Shown in pieces: positions 33,501 through 45,031 of a DNA stretch of 64,000 nt (its first letter is position 1; each line of letters starts with the position of its first letter). The stretch spans positions 1,550,001 to 1,614,000 of the forward strand of contig JBANAY010000001.1 of the NCBI GenBank assembly GCA_037952775.1. Direction: 5' to 3'. The notes below the pieces were generated by a model, which was given only the letters and a program-made list of their open reading frames with translations, did not search any database and was not told where the DNA came from. The position numbers and the translations under genes are program-made. This stretch comes from Clonostachys chloroleuca (taxonomy: Eukaryota > Ascomycota > Sordariomycetes > Hypocreales > Bionectriaceae).

Positions 33501-36171
33501 GGGCCTGGGGACAAGTATATCGGAACATGCTTTAAAGAAATAAGCATAGAGTTCTCGGTATGTATTCATGACCAAGAATTACGCCAGAGGCTGGTGGCTG
33601 AAAACCAGTTGGGCAATAGCCTGCCGAACGGGTAACTTGACCCGAGTGTGGGCTTACCATAGCGTAGGTATGATTAGAAATAGTTGGGGCTACTGTCGCC
33701 GGGGACGCATTTGGGCATTCATTTGTGGATCTTGTAAGTGAGGCAGTGTCTGTGGTTGAAGAGGTAGTCACATCCATATAGCTATTCTTCGTCTGATGTG
33801 CGTCGCTAGATCGTTGCCACGTCAAGCAGGGGAAAGGGAATCGTGAGAACCGGGCATCTCTATTGGTCAGGGATCTATTGGTCAGGGACAGGTTCAAGCA
33901 CGGATGCTTAGGAAAATGCGCCTCGGCGCCACGTGAGTCCTCGCCTGATCTGGTTTGATGGTGGTTTGGAGAGCACGCAGTGGAACGGCGGAGAGAAGGC
34001 CAACCAAACTGGTGGGACGGGAGAGGCTTGTGGGAAGAGGTTCGTTGCAGTGGCTGGCAGGCACAACCAGCCACACAGACGTAGGGCTATTTTTAGGTAC
34101 TGGCCTAAGGAACCATGGATCACAATGGCTCCAGGGGCTTAGAGCTGCTAAAACCCACGATGGGTCCCTACATACAGTGTCACCACACACTGTAGTTTCT
34201 CTCCTCAGTACGGCTTTCCTCATTGTTGAATAATAGCTGGTCATCGATGGCGGTCACAAATCGCCCTTTCTTGCTGCTTAGTAACGGATCTTTTAATGAG
34301 AGTGAGGAATGAGCACCATCCAGGTAGTGATACAATTAAATATCCGAGACTGAACATTCAGCTGTGACATTGTGCACAGATGAGGTTTCCAATCCGGAAG
34401 AAGATCTGACTTCCTTAGATAGAATGATACACAGTGCAGATTGACGCTATGAACGCACTGTATTTCCACTACGTCTAGTGGGTCTCGCTGTCTGACAACC
34501 AGAGACCGCACAGAAAACAACCTTGCTCAACACCCGTGGTTCCTTGTCTTGGCCTAAGCTTGTTGATGCCGACATTCATTCTGGGAAGACGAAGGCTGAT
34601 TCTATACGCCGGAGGAGGCATCAGCTTAGACTGTGTTGGTGTTATTATTCTCAGTCTGCTCTGGACACTGACCTCCTTGCGCTGCGCTCGGGCACCTCAC
34701 TGTAATCATGTGCTATCTTCCAATAGCGCACAGTGGCCCCCTCCAGTGCTCTCCACTGACAATCATCACAGCACTTGTCATTACAGCAACCGTTGAGACG
34801 AATCCTTCTTGCCAGAGAGTGATTTTGGTGTTGGAAATAGGGGCCATGCCATGTGGGTAGCATTGTATCATCGCAGCAGGTAGTGCCAGAGTAAGCATAG
34901 ATGGAGGCTGCCGGGGTGCAGATCCGCCCCGCAGGTTTGCAAAGTCCTCGAATCAATCTTCCTCAGGTCTTGCTCTCTCGCTCGCCTCTCACTGGCAGCC
35001 GGCTCCCTTATGGCGCGCATGGTTGTCCCCCATGCCTCTTCGGGCAAGGCCGTTCCCCATCTGCTCAAGGCTGTGCGCTCTGTTTGTCGTAATAATAGTC
35101 ATCTTGGCCATAAGCACGCAGGGCAGAGCGAGGTGCCAACCATGCAGCCATGTAGATGTAAATGTCTGAGATCTACCCAGCTGGGACATGGCTATTGATA
35201 ATGTATTCGCTGTATTGACGGGAGAGGAATGAATGCGCATATACTGTACTGCATACATAGCGCTGTTGGTAGTTGTCCAATTCTCCATTGATTCATTGTT
35301 TGGAAGAATCAATTATATTATCCACTTACCCACCACCGCCCATTCAGCCGCTCGGCCTGCAAATCTCCTCGGCTCGCTCCCTCGTTCTCTGCTTCGGGAG
35401 ACAAGATCTGCTCAGCTCCTCAACCCAGTCTTGAGTTGTGTAGACAGCCGATCGACCCTTGGCTGCTCTGGTCCGACTTCTGTCAGCACCTCGCGAACCC
35501 CGGCACTCCTCTGAACCGAATTAAGATTGCTGTAAGGAGCTTCTCTTTCTTTCTCCGTCCCTCCCCCTCTCTGCCTTCTACCACCCCGTCGACCATGTTG
35601 CTCCGTTATCACTCTATTTGACCGTCTCCATCCCTCTACGTTTGTTGGTGGGGGAGAACCTCATCTCTGCCCCCCACATGCATAAGGCCTTGTAGCTGTG
35701 CTACCCTGCCACACACCTCTTTTTGTTTAGCAAGGACCCGTGTCGGGATTGTTTTAGTACCACTTGCTTCCCTGGTCGCCTTCCATCGAGCGCACGTCCT
35801 TTCGCTCTCAAGTAGTGCTGGCTTCCATCTAGAACACTCGTGGAAGGTCCTTCACTCTCCTCCCTCTTCACTTTCTCACCTCGCGCTCACCCTCTCATAA
35901 TTCCTCAATTCTACCGGCGTCACTCGAAGTTTTTCTTTTTGCTTCTTTTTTCCTCTAATGATCGTATAGTTCAGGTTCTTCATGCTGATCCATTAATTGG
36001 GACCCTGCCAAGAGACATTCAACCTCTTGGCGGTTGCTTGTAATATCCCCACGGCACGCTTCGCAAACAAGGACCGCTGTATATATTCCAGTCATCTCGA
36101 GTCTTTGATCAATTGTTCATTCCGACCCTCATTTCAGGTTAATTGGCTTTGGTTGAGCCGTCATTTTCACC

Positions 36172-39136
36172 ATGGCGGACTCCAACCCTTCCAATCACCA
36201 CCCCCAGCATGGGCAGCATCAATACAATGACGGAGGGGATGAACCCGTTTCAGCAGTTTCGCCTGCTTCTGCTGGTTACATTGGTGTCGTCTCACCCTTG
36301 AACAACTTCACGTCAGTCAGCCTCTTCAGCCCGATCGGCTATTCGCCCCTCGGTGGGAGCCACGATCAGAGCCGGGACATGGAGCTCCTCGAAGTCGCCC
36401 AGGACCATGGCTCTGCTTCTGCATCACCAAAGATGACGCAAGTACCAGGGGAGCGCGTCCAGGCATCGGATTTGGGAATCACGGTCTTTGACAACAGCAA
36501 TGTCCACCAAGTCCCCGCTGCTCACAACCCCAGCGTAGGCGGCGCAAAGTCGGTACGCGCCTTTTTTGGTGGTACACCTGGAAGCTCCGCCGCGTCGACC
36601 CCTTCCAACATCCGAAGCAGGTCACCGGCCTTTCCATCAGATATGGGTGGAAGCGCTCAGCAGGCCGCTCAGGATACCGGAGAGAACTCAAACCACCAAG
36701 CGTGGTTAATGCCCCCTGGCGAGAACTCTCCATCCGCAACCCCATCACAGACAAACTCGGTCCCAGGCAGCCCAAGAAAACTTGGCGCAAAAAGTCGCAA
36801 ACTGAACAACAGCAGTGATGATGAGGAGGAGTTTGATGATGGAAAGTTCTATAGTGGTTTTGGTGCGCCCCCTGCCTGCGACTCACGAAAGGATATTCAT
36901 ATCAAGAGGTCGAATTGGCTTTCCATCATCATCTACATTCTTTCCGTTTATTCAACAATCATGAGCGGACTCTGGCTTGTCACCGCCATCCTCCAGCCCC
37001 GGTGGGGTCGTGATATCTCATCCCGCAAAGGTTTGAGCCCCTCGACAGCCACAACTCTGGCTGCTCTTGCCGCCAAGTCCATCGAAATGAGCTTCGTCAC
37101 CGTCTTCATCTCCTTCCTTGGTCAGGTTCTGACCCGCCGTTCCCTTCTCCGCAACTCCAAGGGCATGACTCTTGCTGAGATTACCATGCGCAACTGGGTC
37201 ATTCAGCCAGGTTCTCTCATCACCCACGGTGAGACCTTGCCCGAAGCTGGGTTGACCATTCTCGGTCTTTTGAGTCTGACTGCTACCCTGGCCGCTACCT
37301 TCTACACCACCGCCTCTGATGCCATGGTCGCTCCAAAGCTCAAATTCGGTAACTGGGACCAGACGGTCATGGAAGGTCACATCATGGCCTCTTACGGTAA
37401 TGCACTATACATCTCGAAAACCTGCCCGTCTCTCATTACAAAAACCGACACACTCCACGGCTCCGAAGCTTGCATGAACATTCAATCCTCCGGTCAGTCA
37501 TACCGCGACTTGCTCAACTTCATGGACCAATGGCAACACACCTACTTGGACAACAATGTGAACGCGGCGGTCGCTCAGGTTGACCGCCCACTGGGCACTA
37601 GTCTCTATGAAAACACGACCATGGTCGCTTCTTGGATCGAAACCGATAACAGCGATGTCGAAGCTTCATTCAAGCAATACAACCGCATCATCAACAACAT
37701 CACCATGGCCATGCCTCATCCAGGAGTCCAGTCTGCTGCCAAGGAAGAATTCAACGGAATTCTGCAGCCAGATGATCTTGGTGGTGTAGGATCATATTCC
37801 ATCCGTGCTGGTGTCGTATCTCCAACGGTAAATGTGATGTGTGTCAATATGAACAAGGAGGAACTGGAGCCGTTGATTTATACCGCTTGGCCCGACGCTC
37901 GAACTAACAGCACGGGTGTTGGCGATCAATTGATTGGAGCTGTTGACTGGACCAACGACTTCCCAAACATCGACGACGATAAGGATTTCCTCAACAGAAC
38001 CAAGGTGGATGACATCTTCAGATGGGGCCCCAAGTACCAGCGCCGCCCCCCGTACTTCCAACTTGTAGGCTTCCCGAAGATTCTGCGGCAGACGTGGTTG
38101 CAGCTGGCTTACTTACTGTTCTATAGTATCCCTCTGACTACAATACCATCACCAACTCCACGATGATAGGGTCCGAAGCCATATACCTCCTGGGTAAAAA
38201 GCCGGATTTCTCGGACTACACTCTCTGCGAGCTTCGATCATGGGTATCTCCTAAGTGCTCCACGCGCTTCGATATTTCTGGTACGTCGGGGGCCAGGGCA
38301 TCTTCTTATTGCGAAGACCCAGAGGATAAAGATAGCTTTATGCGTTCGTACCCCGGTGATGAGATTGCTTCTACTCCTGCCCCCGACTGGAAATGGGTCG
38401 TAAGTCTACCCGACTGCTACTTACCTGTAATTACTTGAGACTGACAGGCAGCTCACAGGCGGATGCATGGAGACTTTCAATGGACGTCAGCGGCGGAGTG
38501 TACAACAACAATGCTTCCAATGCAAGACTGCTTACGCAGCTCGTCCTCTCTGAACCAAAGATGCCAGCCCAACTTCCCAGCATGGCTGAGGCTCTTGCTG
38601 TGTATATCGGCTCTACGCTTGTCACCAGCTCCATCAAGACCCCTTTCCGCCATTACTGGGATAACCCCCAGGCTATCCTTGAAGATCCAGGTCAGCTCCA
38701 GGCCTTCAATGCCTCCATTCGCTCTCAACAATACACATCTGGCCACGTCAACGACTGGCAGGCCATCTTCTACGCCGTGCTTGCCCTCGTCTTTGCCATC
38801 AATCTATTCTGTCTTCTCTACCTCTTTCTCCGCTCTGGACTCGTCACCGACTATACCGAACCCCAGAATCTGTTCGCCCTCGCCATCAACAGCCCTCCCA
38901 GCGCCCAGCTCACGGGTAGCTGCGGGGGTGGTCCTGAGAAGAGGGACGTCGTCGTCCCCTGGCGTGTTGCTTATGCGCCTAGTGCGAACCACTACTTCTT
39001 CGAAGAGGCTGCCGACAGGCCCAAGGCGAAATATATCAAGGTCGACGAGGGTGTGACCACGGGGGCTAATCCTCACCACCTTAGACCGCAGTCTAGCTAC
39101 AAACGCTTGAGCTCATCAAGGGATTGGAACTTCTAG
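36172..39136 (+). CDS. Fungal conserved membrane protein, four predicted helices, function unknown
   Basis: Exons 36172-38064, 38127-38399 and 38459-39136 give 947 residues with phase-0 introns. The start ACCATGG has an ideal context. Residues 1-245 are Ser/Pro/Gly-rich and probably a disordered cytoplasmic tail with an acidic DDEEEFDDG patch. Hydrophobic helices lie at about 248-274, 297-320 and 360-382. A ~440-residue loop follows, with NxS/T sequons and paired cysteines (TLCELRSW..PKCS, YCED), which suggests an exposed, glycosylated domain. A last helix at ~822-848 precedes a short tail. I recognise the layout as one common among unnamed Pezizomycotina proteins but know no function. It may act at the plasma membrane or an endomembrane; that is inference. 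Confidence 0.85.
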
Positions 39137-39748: not shown

Positions 39749-42448
39749 ATGCCGGAGTCAGATAATCAGCCGCAGCCTTCTGCGAAGGACTCCAAATTGC
39801 TTGGACCGCAAGACACTATCGATAAGTTCTAGGCGAAATTCACCTCAAAAACACCTGGAAAAGGTAGAATCAGGCGTCTCCAATGTTTGGATCTGTCCCA
39901 TAACCTGTGCCATAACTAACAATATTGCCCTTCTCACCTTAGCTACATCGGTCATCCCGCAAAGCCCGCATGCGGTGAGACTCCCAAACGCCGTTTACGA
40001 TGGGCAACAGCCACCTTCAGAAGCCGCCTACGTCTCGTACGATGATGCTGTCGCGATATGCAGAGCCAAGGTTGAGAAAATTGTCAAGGAATGTCGTCGT
40101 ATCAACATGAGATATCGAGATCCGCATTTCGACCTTGAGGCGGACCTCAAGTTGGGACGACGGGACTGCTTGGAGTCGCTTCCAAGCTTCCAAGAAGGGA
40201 AGCCACCGGGGCACACGTTCAAGCCCCAAAGTGCGAAACGAGTAGTCGACATTTTTGACGAGCCGCAGTTCTTTGTCGACGCACCTTCATCCAACGATGT
40301 CAAGCAAGGCAGAGATGGAGACTGCTGGCTCATGGCGGCTCTGTGCACATTGAGCAACAAGCCTGGACTTATTGAGAAGATTTGTGTGGCCCACGATCAG
40401 GATGTTGGTGTTTATGGGTTTGTTTTCTATCGAGATGGTGAATGGATCTCTGAGATCATTGACGATTATGTTTGTCACCACCACCCCTTTTCCTCTCCCT
40501 GTTGGAGAACACAGAAGCTGACGCGCCACATAGCTCTATCTCACCAAGCCGGACTACGACGAGAGCTACTTGGATCGTGTGCTGTTTGATGAACTGGAGA
40601 GAGCCAACCCCGAGGAAGCCTATCGCCGGGTGTATCAGTCCAACAGCAGTGCCCTCTATTTTGCCCAGTGCCAACACCCTCAAAAGACATGGCTACCGCT
40701 TCTAGAAAAGTGCTATGCAAAAGCACATGGAGACTATGCTTCCATCGAGGGTGGCTTTGGCGGCGAAGGCATTGAAGACCTCAGTGGTGGCATCACATCT
40801 GAGCTCTTTACCAGTGATATTCTCGACAAGGTAAGAGCGAGTACATTTGGTGGCGCAAGAAGGTTGGCATATAATAACAAATGACATAGGAGCGTTTCTA
40901 GGGCGAGCTCCTCCGGGTAAATGACGAGTTTCTTTTCGGTTGCAGCACAGGTGTGTGGGGCCTGAATCGAAGTGATAACAAAGGGATTGTCGAGCTTCAC
41001 GCATATTCTGTCCAGAAAGCCGTGGAAATCGACGGGCAGAGGTTTTTGCGCCTGAAAAATCCCTGGGGAAAGGGGGAGTGGAAAGGGGCATGGAGTAAGG
41101 CGTAATCTTTTTCTTCAGCACAAGATAGAGCGGCTGACAACATGTTCTAGGCGACGGCTCGAAAGAGTGGACTTCAGAGTGGCTACAGAAACTGGGTCAT
41201 AGGTTTGGAGAGGATGGAGATTTTTGGATGACATACAGCGATCTTCTGCGAAAATTTCAAGCATTTGAAAGGACACAACTGTTTGGCCCGGATTGGGGCG
41301 TGGCGCAAATTTGGACAACCCTCACAGTTCCTTGGACGACGAGTTACCACGACACCTCTTTTTGCTTCACTCTTTCAAAACCAGGGCCCGTGGTAATTGT
41401 TCTCTCCCAGCTTGACGATCGGTATTTCAGAGGCTTGCAGGGCCAATATCATTTCCAGCTTGCTTTTCGTCTACATAAGACAGGCCATGAGGAATATATT
41501 GTCCGCAGCCAAAGTCAATATCGCATGCGGCGATCAGTCAATGTTGAAGTCGAACTTGAGCAAGGCAGTTATCAAGTGAGGCTGAAGATCATCGCAAGCC
41601 GCCGCGAACAAGTACTCCCTCTTGATCAAGTCATTCGAAACCATGCTAAAAAGAGACGGGATAAACTTATTCGCGTCGGTCTGGCCTATGATCTTGCACA
41701 TAGGAAAGGCAAGTTTGTGGAACTACCAGAAGAAAAGGCGGCTAAGGAATTGAGAGACAGGACAATAAGACAAGCTAAACGAGAGGAGGTAAAGCACAGG
41801 ATCCTGTGTGCCCGGGAAGAGTCACATTACATGCGGCGAAAACAGCTGCGCCGAGAGAAGAGGAGGGCGAAGAACAAGGGTAGAATGCAGTCCACGGTCG
41901 AAAAGAGGGACAACCTAACAGCTTCCAATTCTGACCTCAAGGTAGCACAAGGAATGGGAAGAGTCTCTTCGACCGATGAAGCCACAAAAGACCACCGACA
42001 AGTCAGCCGAAAGGAAGATCTAGCTAGCTCTGAAGATTCGGAGTCCCTGTCAGATCTGTCTGGGCGGGAACTGGATTTGGAGATTGATGCCCACCTCAAG
42101 GAGAGCAGGGAGCCCGCGCAAGAAGGATGCCCTCCCGGACTTGATCAGGACGAACTGGATGAGTTTGAAAAAGACCCGTGGAATGCGGTTGCAGTCGTCG
42201 GCCTCCGAGTGTACTACAAAATATCAGATACCGATGAGAATACCCAAGTCGTGAAGCTGAAGGTAGTCCGGCCACAGCTTCTCGAAGGTGTGAGCAAGGA
42301 TGAGATGGAGGAATGCCAGAAAAGCCAGGGCCTGGACATAGACGACAGCTCGAAAGATGCCACGCTAGAAGGGGGTATAGTGGCAAGGAAGAAAAGCATC
42401 ATTGGTGAAGAGGTGCGAAGTGTTCGCAAGGATAAAGAGCAGCTTTGA
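39749..42448 (+). CDS. Calpain-family (C2) cysteine protease with two in-frame TAG codons
   Basis: Exons 39749-39863, 39943-40469, 40534-40830, 40890-41094 and 41151-42448 join in phase to 814 codons. The CysPc domain holds the calpain triad: Cys166 in GDCWLMAAL with the oxyanion Gln in KQGRDGDC, His350 in ELHAYSV, and Asn370 in KNPWG. A C2-like domain III follows (FGPDWGVAQIW to about residue 530), then a charged Lys/Arg/Glu-rich tail. Calpains are intracellular regulatory proteases. Two TAG codons interrupt the frame: codon 28 (39830-39832, in DKF-stop-AKFTSKTPGK) and codon 317 (40899-40901, in ERF-stop-GELLRVN). From memory of the family, Trp is expected at both. There is no frameshift and all splice sites are intact. 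Read literally, the product is a 27-residue peptide, so the gene is either recoded, for example by mRNA editing, or recently inactivated. It is not a PalB-type calpain by layout. Confidence 0.85.
39830..39832 (+). other. In-frame TAG in calpain exon 1 (expected Trp28)
   Basis: The context is TTC TAG GCG. The adenine at 39831 follows T, the base preferred at -1 by fungal A-to-I editing; A to I would give TGG, Trp. It lies in the loop of a weak hairpin (TTC/GAA stem, 39827-39829 with 39835-39837). No plausible intron removes this codon without deleting the conserved N terminus. Confidence 0.9.
40899..40901 (+). other. In-frame TAG in calpain exon 4 (expected Trp317)
   Basis: The context is TTC TAG GGC. 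The adenine at 40900 would give Trp if edited. In spliced mRNA the site lies in a 13-base loop closed by a perfect 6-bp stem: AG ending exon 3 plus GAGC at 40890-40893, pairing with GCTCCT at 40907-40912. The same TTTCTAG could also act as an alternative 3' splice site that removes four codons in frame. Confidence 0.85.
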
Positions 42449-44183: not shown

Positions 44184-45031
44184 TTAGGCGACAGGAGCGA
44201 TAGGAGCCACGGGAGCTGCGACGTTGTTGATGTCAACCTCGGTATTGATCTCGCCGCTGGCAGCCTTCTGCGGGCAGTCACGGGAGATGTGACCAGCCTC
44301 ACCACACTGGTAGCAAGTCTTTCCAGCGGTGTTCAGGGGTCCACCGTTGGGGGCGGTGCAGTCGCGAGAAATGTGACCGAGCTTGCCACACGCGTAGCAC
44401 TTCATGGCTTGAGCCTGGCAATCGCGGGCGAAGTGGTTGGGACCACCGCACTTGTAGCAAGTGGCAGGGCGAGGGCCGCCGGCGAAACCACCACGGCCGC
44501 CATAGGCACCAGGATAGCCACCGCCGCGAGGGATGGGAGCACCTCGGCCCAGAGCACCGGGGCCAACGGGATTGGGGCAGGCGCGCTAGGAAGATACGTC
44601 AGTTCAAGTTCAGATGCTGTGCTGTTTGGGTTCGTCTTCTTACAGCCAAGTGGCCGGGCTGGCCGCAGTTATAGCAGCGTCCACTGGCGCCAGTTCCACT
44701 GAGCCTCAGAGTTGGGCAATCAGCCTGGACGTGGCCAAGGCCCTGGCAGTGGTAGCACTGCTTGGCCTCGGTGGTGCGGGGAAGAGGGCAGCCGTTGGAC
44801 TCGTGGCCTGAAGGATAAGAGTCAGACAAGATCACATTCTGCGAGAAGCATCTTAATTCAACGTACCAGGCTGCTTGCCTATGAGGAGAAGAGTTAGCAA
44901 ATGAAGTTCCACCGCACTATGAGGGTTATATACATACAGTTGTAGCAAAGACGCTCAGCAGAAGAACAGACCTCGGCGTAGTGGCCAACGTTGCCACACT
45001 TGTAGCAAGCTCGACGAGAGAGGGAAGACAT
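44184..45031 (-). CDS. GIS2: Seven-zinc-knuckle CCHC protein, Gis2/CNBP/Byr3 homologue
   Basis: Minus-strand exons 45031-44938, 44878-44867 (a 12-base micro-exon), 44807-44644 and 44585-44184 give 223 residues in perfect phase. The protein contains seven C-x2-C-x4-H-x4-C knuckles, beginning CYKCGNVGH, CYNCKQPGH, CYHCQGLGH, CYNCGQPGH, CYKCGGPNH, CYACGKLGH and CYQCGEAGH. A Gly/Arg/Pro-rich RGG-like linker lies between the fourth and fifth. The second knuckle is completed only through the micro-exon. Gis2/CNBP proteins bind single-stranded G-rich RNA/DNA, associate with polysomes and stress granules and tune translation of particular mRNAs; seven knuckles is the normal number. The acidic/Pro-Ala C-terminal tail after the last knuckle looks fungal-specific. 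Confidence 0.95.

Follow-up and report, generated by a model that had tools for sequence, protein, structure and literature searches.

A calpain gene of Clonostachys chloroleuca with two in-frame TAG codons at tryptophan positions, a candidate for restorative A-to-I mRNA editing

Introduction

A-to-I editing of mRNA in fungi related to the mycoparasite and biocontrol species Clonostachys chloroleuca is the work of the tRNA deaminase Tad2-Tad3, assisted by a cofactor, Ame1, and takes place mainly in sexual development; a hairpin loop holds the edited A at about 62% of the known fungal sites. In PUK1 of Fusarium graminearum, two UAG codons in one open reading frame (ORF) are read as UGG after editing in perithecia (PMC4817773, PMC11156358), and automated annotation evades these stops by false introns, which are also placed at 69 genes of that fungus (PMC4817773, section 12). 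CHE1 of the same species, a zinc-finger transcription factor edited in hyphae, has a premature stop that is kept in close relatives, and its annotation problems comprise false stops, downstream starts and small false introns (PMC11169179). In FgBUD14, editing and alternative splicing act at one premature stop, which lies inside an alternatively spliced intron (PMC11156358).

The gene described here resembles PUK1 in having two UAGs in one ORF and in the way that gene models avoid them. The PUK1 stops are tandem and their editing was measured, whereas those of C. chloroleuca are 289 codons apart and their editing is deduced. With CHE1 it shares the same annotation problems and, probably, stops kept in close relatives, although its product is a protease of the calpain family. 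Calpain-1 (PDB: 1tl9), of cysteine protease family C2, is alike in its catalytic triad and in the sequence match; calpains of this family differ from the C. chloroleuca gene, which has two in-frame stops.

Results

The gene is located on the forward strand at positions 39749-42448 of the window, that is, the whole stretch of 64,000 nucleotides analyzed, in the genome of strain Cc878 (59.38 Mb in four contigs, PMC11256822). Once joined, its five exons (Table 1) are in frame over 813 codons, with TGA at the end, and the TAGs at codons 28 (site 1) and 317 (site 2) are the sole lesions of the joined ORF, which is free of frameshifts. The only Pfam family matched is Peptidase_C2 (residues 137-420, E = 1.7e-59), and the calpain triad residues Cys166, His350, and Asn370 are all found in their expected motifs. 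The initial annotation of this DNA had described cleanly joining exons, an intact triad and no lesions other than these TAGs, and our results agree on each count. The predicted product is a calpain of family C2, with orthologues in many Sordariomycetes. As to the surroundings, the upstream neighbor (window 36157-39136, forward strand) consists of long membrane-protein-like frames, the last of which ends TTC-TAG, and the reverse strand at 44184-44916 has frames with repeated CCHC zinc knuckles (CYKCGGPNHFARDC etc.), like those of small nucleic-acid-binding zinc-knuckle proteins.

Table 1. Coordinates of the calpain gene and of its sequence features in the window
Feature	Position	Strand	Remarks
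Exon 1	39749..39863	+	codons 1-38 and first base of codon 39
Exon 2	39943..40469	+	holds catalytic Cys166
Exon 3	40534..40830	+	
Exon 4	40890..41094	+	holds His350 and Asn370
Exon 5	41151..42448	+	post-core part, variable C-terminal tail, TGA stop
Site 1, TAG at codon 28	39830..39832 (A39831)	+	replaces near-invariant Trp
Site 2, TAG at codon 317	40899..40901 (A40900)	+	replaces near-invariant Trp; doubles as alternative in-frame 3' splice site
Hairpin at site 2	40890..40912	+	AGGAGC / 13-nt loop 40894-40906 / GCUCCU 40907-40912; loop centered on A40900

The initial annotation expected Trp at both sites and proposed an alignment of orthologues. In the protein alignment of the 120 relatives listed of 2141 matches, Trp is found at site 1 in 117 and at site 2 in 119, so the expectation was borne out. 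The first of these counts is approximate because a few N-termini, e.g., those of P0005 and P0075, seem to have been misread. Among these 120, the sequences without Trp at site 1 are P0001, P0002, and the partial P0036, and at site 2 P0001 only. At the paralogous loci of the same genome (L001-L008), every tblastn piece covering a site has Trp there. Two supporting points carried less weight. The codon TTC does precede both TAGs, as described, but it is no extra evidence because Phe precedes Trp at both sites in nearly all relatives; the U before the A, offered as an argument for editing, conveys little information, since U(-1) belongs to any UAG.

The stops in Clonostachys relatives were deduced from protein gene models. 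The C. rosea IK726 protein (P0001) is without precisely the two TAG-bearing stretches, and the window DNA, spliced at 39826-39964 (donor GTTCTA, acceptor AAG) and to an acceptor at 40901, gives the junction peptides of P0001, TIDNPHAV and DILDKGELL. Because the model skips both stretches and the window DNA reproduces its odd junctions, we infer both stops in C. rosea IK726; the second junction needs an AG there, and site 2 of this strain should therefore be NAG, most simply TAG. Another protein named C. rosea (P0002, 83% identical) reads ERFWGELL at site 2, that is, Trp, and has an N-terminus that corresponds to another frame of exon 1 and permits CAG, CCG, TAG, or TCG at site 1 but never TGG, a codon permitted in the control, P0005. 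We infer a stop at site 1 in all three Clonostachys sequences, and site 1 appears to be the older stop, followed by site 2 in the lineage of C. chloroleuca and C. rosea IK726. The P0002 model moreover leaves out residues 426-446, a stretch of 21 with three Trp among them, and this skip is reproduced from the window DNA by a 63-nt in-frame GT-AG piece (41281-41343), so that a further hidden stop is possible in that lineage. Skips of at least four conserved core residues occur in 8 of the 120 relatives, namely both Clonostachys proteins and, as a control, 6 of the 118 others, which speaks against relying on skips in gene models as signs of a stop. The database model of C. chloroleuca itself (P0122, 223 amino acids) starts at Met94, keeps the acceptor at 40889 and ends at site 2; it presumably derives from the published annotation, which was built with vegetative and in planta RNA-seq (PMC11256822).

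The bases preferred from -2 to +4 around an edited A (PMC9600606; first position taken as -2) are present at five of the six positions at each site, where U(-1) and G(+1) match because any UAG supplies them; a score of five is also reached by 2 of the 14 other Trp codons and by 253 of 1300 TAGs in the window. The loop of the hairpin at site 2 is closed by six pairs and has a hairpin-loop probability of 1.0, in accordance with the 13-base loop on a 6-bp stem that had been described for the second TAG. Of 85 UA adenosines, site 2 itself counted, 4 score as high when the flanks are 30 nt and 6 when they are 20 nt. For the first TAG a weak loop had been claimed, and this was not reproduced: in seven folds with flanks of 10 to 60 nt, A39831 is base-paired, lies in an internal loop or is unstructured, but never falls in a hairpin loop, and its sampled hairpin-loop probability is 0.0 with 20 and 30 nt flanks. 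A loop counts for more where the neighboring bases are less favorable (PMC9600606). At Trp372, where there is no stop, the context is more favorable than at either of the two sites (six of six) and the loop probability is 1.0, equal to that of site 2.

In mRNA the first two stem bases of the hairpin at site 2 are the last bases of exon 3 (40829-40830); in pre-mRNA, where the same stem can form, the last bases of intron 3 (40888-40889) take their place. The change that made the TAG at site 2 also made an AG acceptor 12 nt past the old, presumably ancestral one (40889), and its use would drop Glu-Arg-Phe-stop in frame. Site 2 could accordingly be spliced out through the new acceptor, with site 1 edited or bypassed by a start at Met94. 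The C. rosea IK726 model uses this in-frame acceptor, and FgBUD14 is a precedent for editing and alternative splicing at one premature stop, with the difference that the calpain TAG is itself the acceptor, and that for the second stop only. The old AG is in the pre-mRNA stem and the new AG in the loop, and RNA structure could therefore influence the choice of acceptor. Against splicing, its product loses ERF together with the Trp position conserved in nearly all relatives, no other AG comes between the branch-like motifs (themselves weak, matching a relaxed motif only) and the old acceptor, and P0122 retains the old acceptor. Site 1 is beyond its reach, because only two GT donors of exon 1 precede it and the one taken by the C. 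rosea model has AAG as its acceptor. Removal of site 2 by splicing is thus, in our judgment, an unlikely explanation of the locus.

Decay was assessed from the distribution of amino acid changes along the protein. In comparison to P0001, 5 of 233 residues are changed before site 2 (81-316), 5 of 258 after it (318-575), and 19 of 145 in the tail (576-720), giving Fisher p values for core against tail of 3.7e-5 before and 1.1e-5 after site 2. In comparison to P0002, the changed residues are 12 of 236 and 13 of 237, against 32 of 145 in the tail (p = 8e-7 and 2e-6); these are four uncorrected tests, with gaps and X left out. This distribution suggests that the protein is still under selection on both sides of the stops, and the constraint after site 2 implies that ribosomes pass site 2, or that splicing removes it, if both stops are present in C. 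rosea IK726 as deduced from P0001. A recent pseudogene decaying after two nonsense changes would be in keeping with the two stops, with a database model that ends early, and with a somewhat long branch: the tree, built from 34 chosen sequences, places the tips of Clonostachys at a distance of 0.30 from the hypocrealean node, and of the 25 other hypocrealean tips 21 are shorter. The branch is nevertheless within the range of the orthologues (0.16-0.40), and the sister P0005 is close at 0.27. The marks of a pseudogene, relaxed uniform change and further lesions, are absent, since constraint is unequal along the protein between sequences deduced to share stops and no frameshift or other stop is found in 813 codons. 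Both stops also stand at Trp. TGG to TAG accounts for 4.6-10.4% of the nonsense opportunities in the ORF, and the probability that two of two random nonsense changes are both of this kind is therefore 0.002-0.011, depending on transition bias. We regard a decaying pseudogene as quite unlikely.

The change from TGG to TAG is typical of repeat-induced point mutation (RIP), in which CpA becomes TpA. If RIP-type changes alone are considered, TGG to TAG makes up 14 of 57 opportunities (about a quarter for each stop) and the probability of two of two is about 0.06. A RIP signature (TpA excess, CpA/TpG loss) was sought in the calpain gene and was not seen: TpA/ApT is 0.58 and (CpA+TpG)/(ApC+GpT) is 1.37, ordinary values compared to 0.67 and 1.33 for the window, and the 57 RIP-type nonsense opportunities of the ORF are still intact. 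Sequencing error could be suspected in an assembly from Nanopore reads only, with long-read correction only (PMC11256822). The same stops are, however, deduced in the separately sequenced C. rosea, and RIP or sequencing error is a highly improbable origin of the TAGs. Decoding of UAG by ribosomal read-through or a suppressor tRNA would likewise keep the ORF under selection, but is the least credible explanation, considering that the next upstream frame also ends in TAG, that passing two stops would leave little product, and that UGA CUA, the fungal read-through context, is absent.

All six frames of the genome were searched with residues 1-535 for an intact second copy. The pieces outside the gene are only 32-58% identical (the longest 52%), and therefore no close second copy was seen among them; a further weak calpain-domain match is located at C3:20156821. 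The further calpain-like loci L001-L006 and L008, with pieces 32-58% identical to the calpain gene, represent a small expansion.

Corrected stops were also searched for among kinases, with at least 140 matches (123 of 317 candidates scored), of which 33 have an internal TAG, in 32 stretches. Read by eye, these stretches gave one candidate, L045, while many other TAGs are at intron ends. L045 (C4:13069494-13070721, reverse strand, A at C4:13070397) has a kinase-like frame that a TAG interrupts between AVKQLKQRVPPDNRD and KSMKREIKALSNLHH; judged by eye, Trp is nearby in L042, a similar kinase, and we count L045 as a second candidate for a corrected stop. Tandem stops like those of PUK1 were sought by pattern, with three matches, none of which is in a kinase-like frame. 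No TAG was found in the matched domains of the homologues of RID and SPO22, two genes edited in F. graminearum.

Concerning the editing machinery, a deaminase at C3:20809218 has the motifs HAE and PCVMC, from which we take it to be Tad2-like. Tad3 was not identified in the C. chloroleuca genome, where one weak deaminase match is located at C1:3482534. Three DUF726 genes are present, and in two of them Ser, Asp and His are spaced as in Ame1 (58 and 40 residues by manual count). Of these two, the copy at C1:2966221 is the likeliest orthologue of Ame1; it has LV at two residues said to be essential, where Ame1 has MV (positioned by hand), and the copy at C3:26349453 has LN there; the ancestors of Ame1 had KN. 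According to its description, C. chloroleuca is likely heterothallic and forms no perithecia when cultured alone, and homothallic C. rosea strains fruit in single culture (PMC13401452). The review consulted on this point, in a search with most subscription papers outside its reach and absence from print not implied, gave no report of editing in Clonostachys.

Discussion

Correction of both UAGs by A-to-I mRNA editing is the best explanation of these observations and, judging from sequence, probably the right one. The editing interpretation of the initial annotation is partly supported, by the replacement of Trp, by the site 1 stop deduced in three Clonostachys and by constraint on the protein; its arguments from TTC and U(-1) are weak, site 1 is without a loop, and the acceptor at site 2 was missed. 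The two premature UAGs at Trp positions would be converted to UGG-like codons, in C. chloroleuca presumably via Tad2-Tad3 and Ame1 and perhaps only at certain life stages. From unedited mRNA, translation that begins at the first ATG would yield a peptide of 27 residues, or translation that begins at Met94 a fragment up to site 2 without the catalytic His and Asn; double-edited mRNA would yield the full-length protease. In vegetative cells the calpain would then be silent, and editing would be a precondition of its activity.

A more elaborate possibility, which we consider improbable, combines editing with splicing in a switch with two locks and two keys, in which site 1 is opened only by editing and site 2 is both an editing target and a splice acceptor. 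The later mutation at site 2 would have created in one step both an in-frame acceptor and an editing target, the two within one perfect hairpin loop. Hyphae would produce the spliced form from Met94 without ERFW and fruiting bodies the double-edited full-length protease, with RNA structure choosing the form and Clonostachys lineages carrying different sets of stops.

In summary, restorative A-to-I editing of the C. chloroleuca calpain is a well-supported candidate, on the evidence of comparative sequence analysis, for the same phenomenon that is known from Fusarium. The case illustrates that gene models are able to hide stops in false introns. If editing is confirmed, restorative A-to-I editing would reach the Bionectriaceae, a family with biocontrol mycoparasites, and a calpain. 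The order of stops deduced here, with site 1 in three Clonostachys sequences, site 2 in two and perhaps a further stop in the third, would offer a natural test of whether premature stops pile up once a gene depends on editing.
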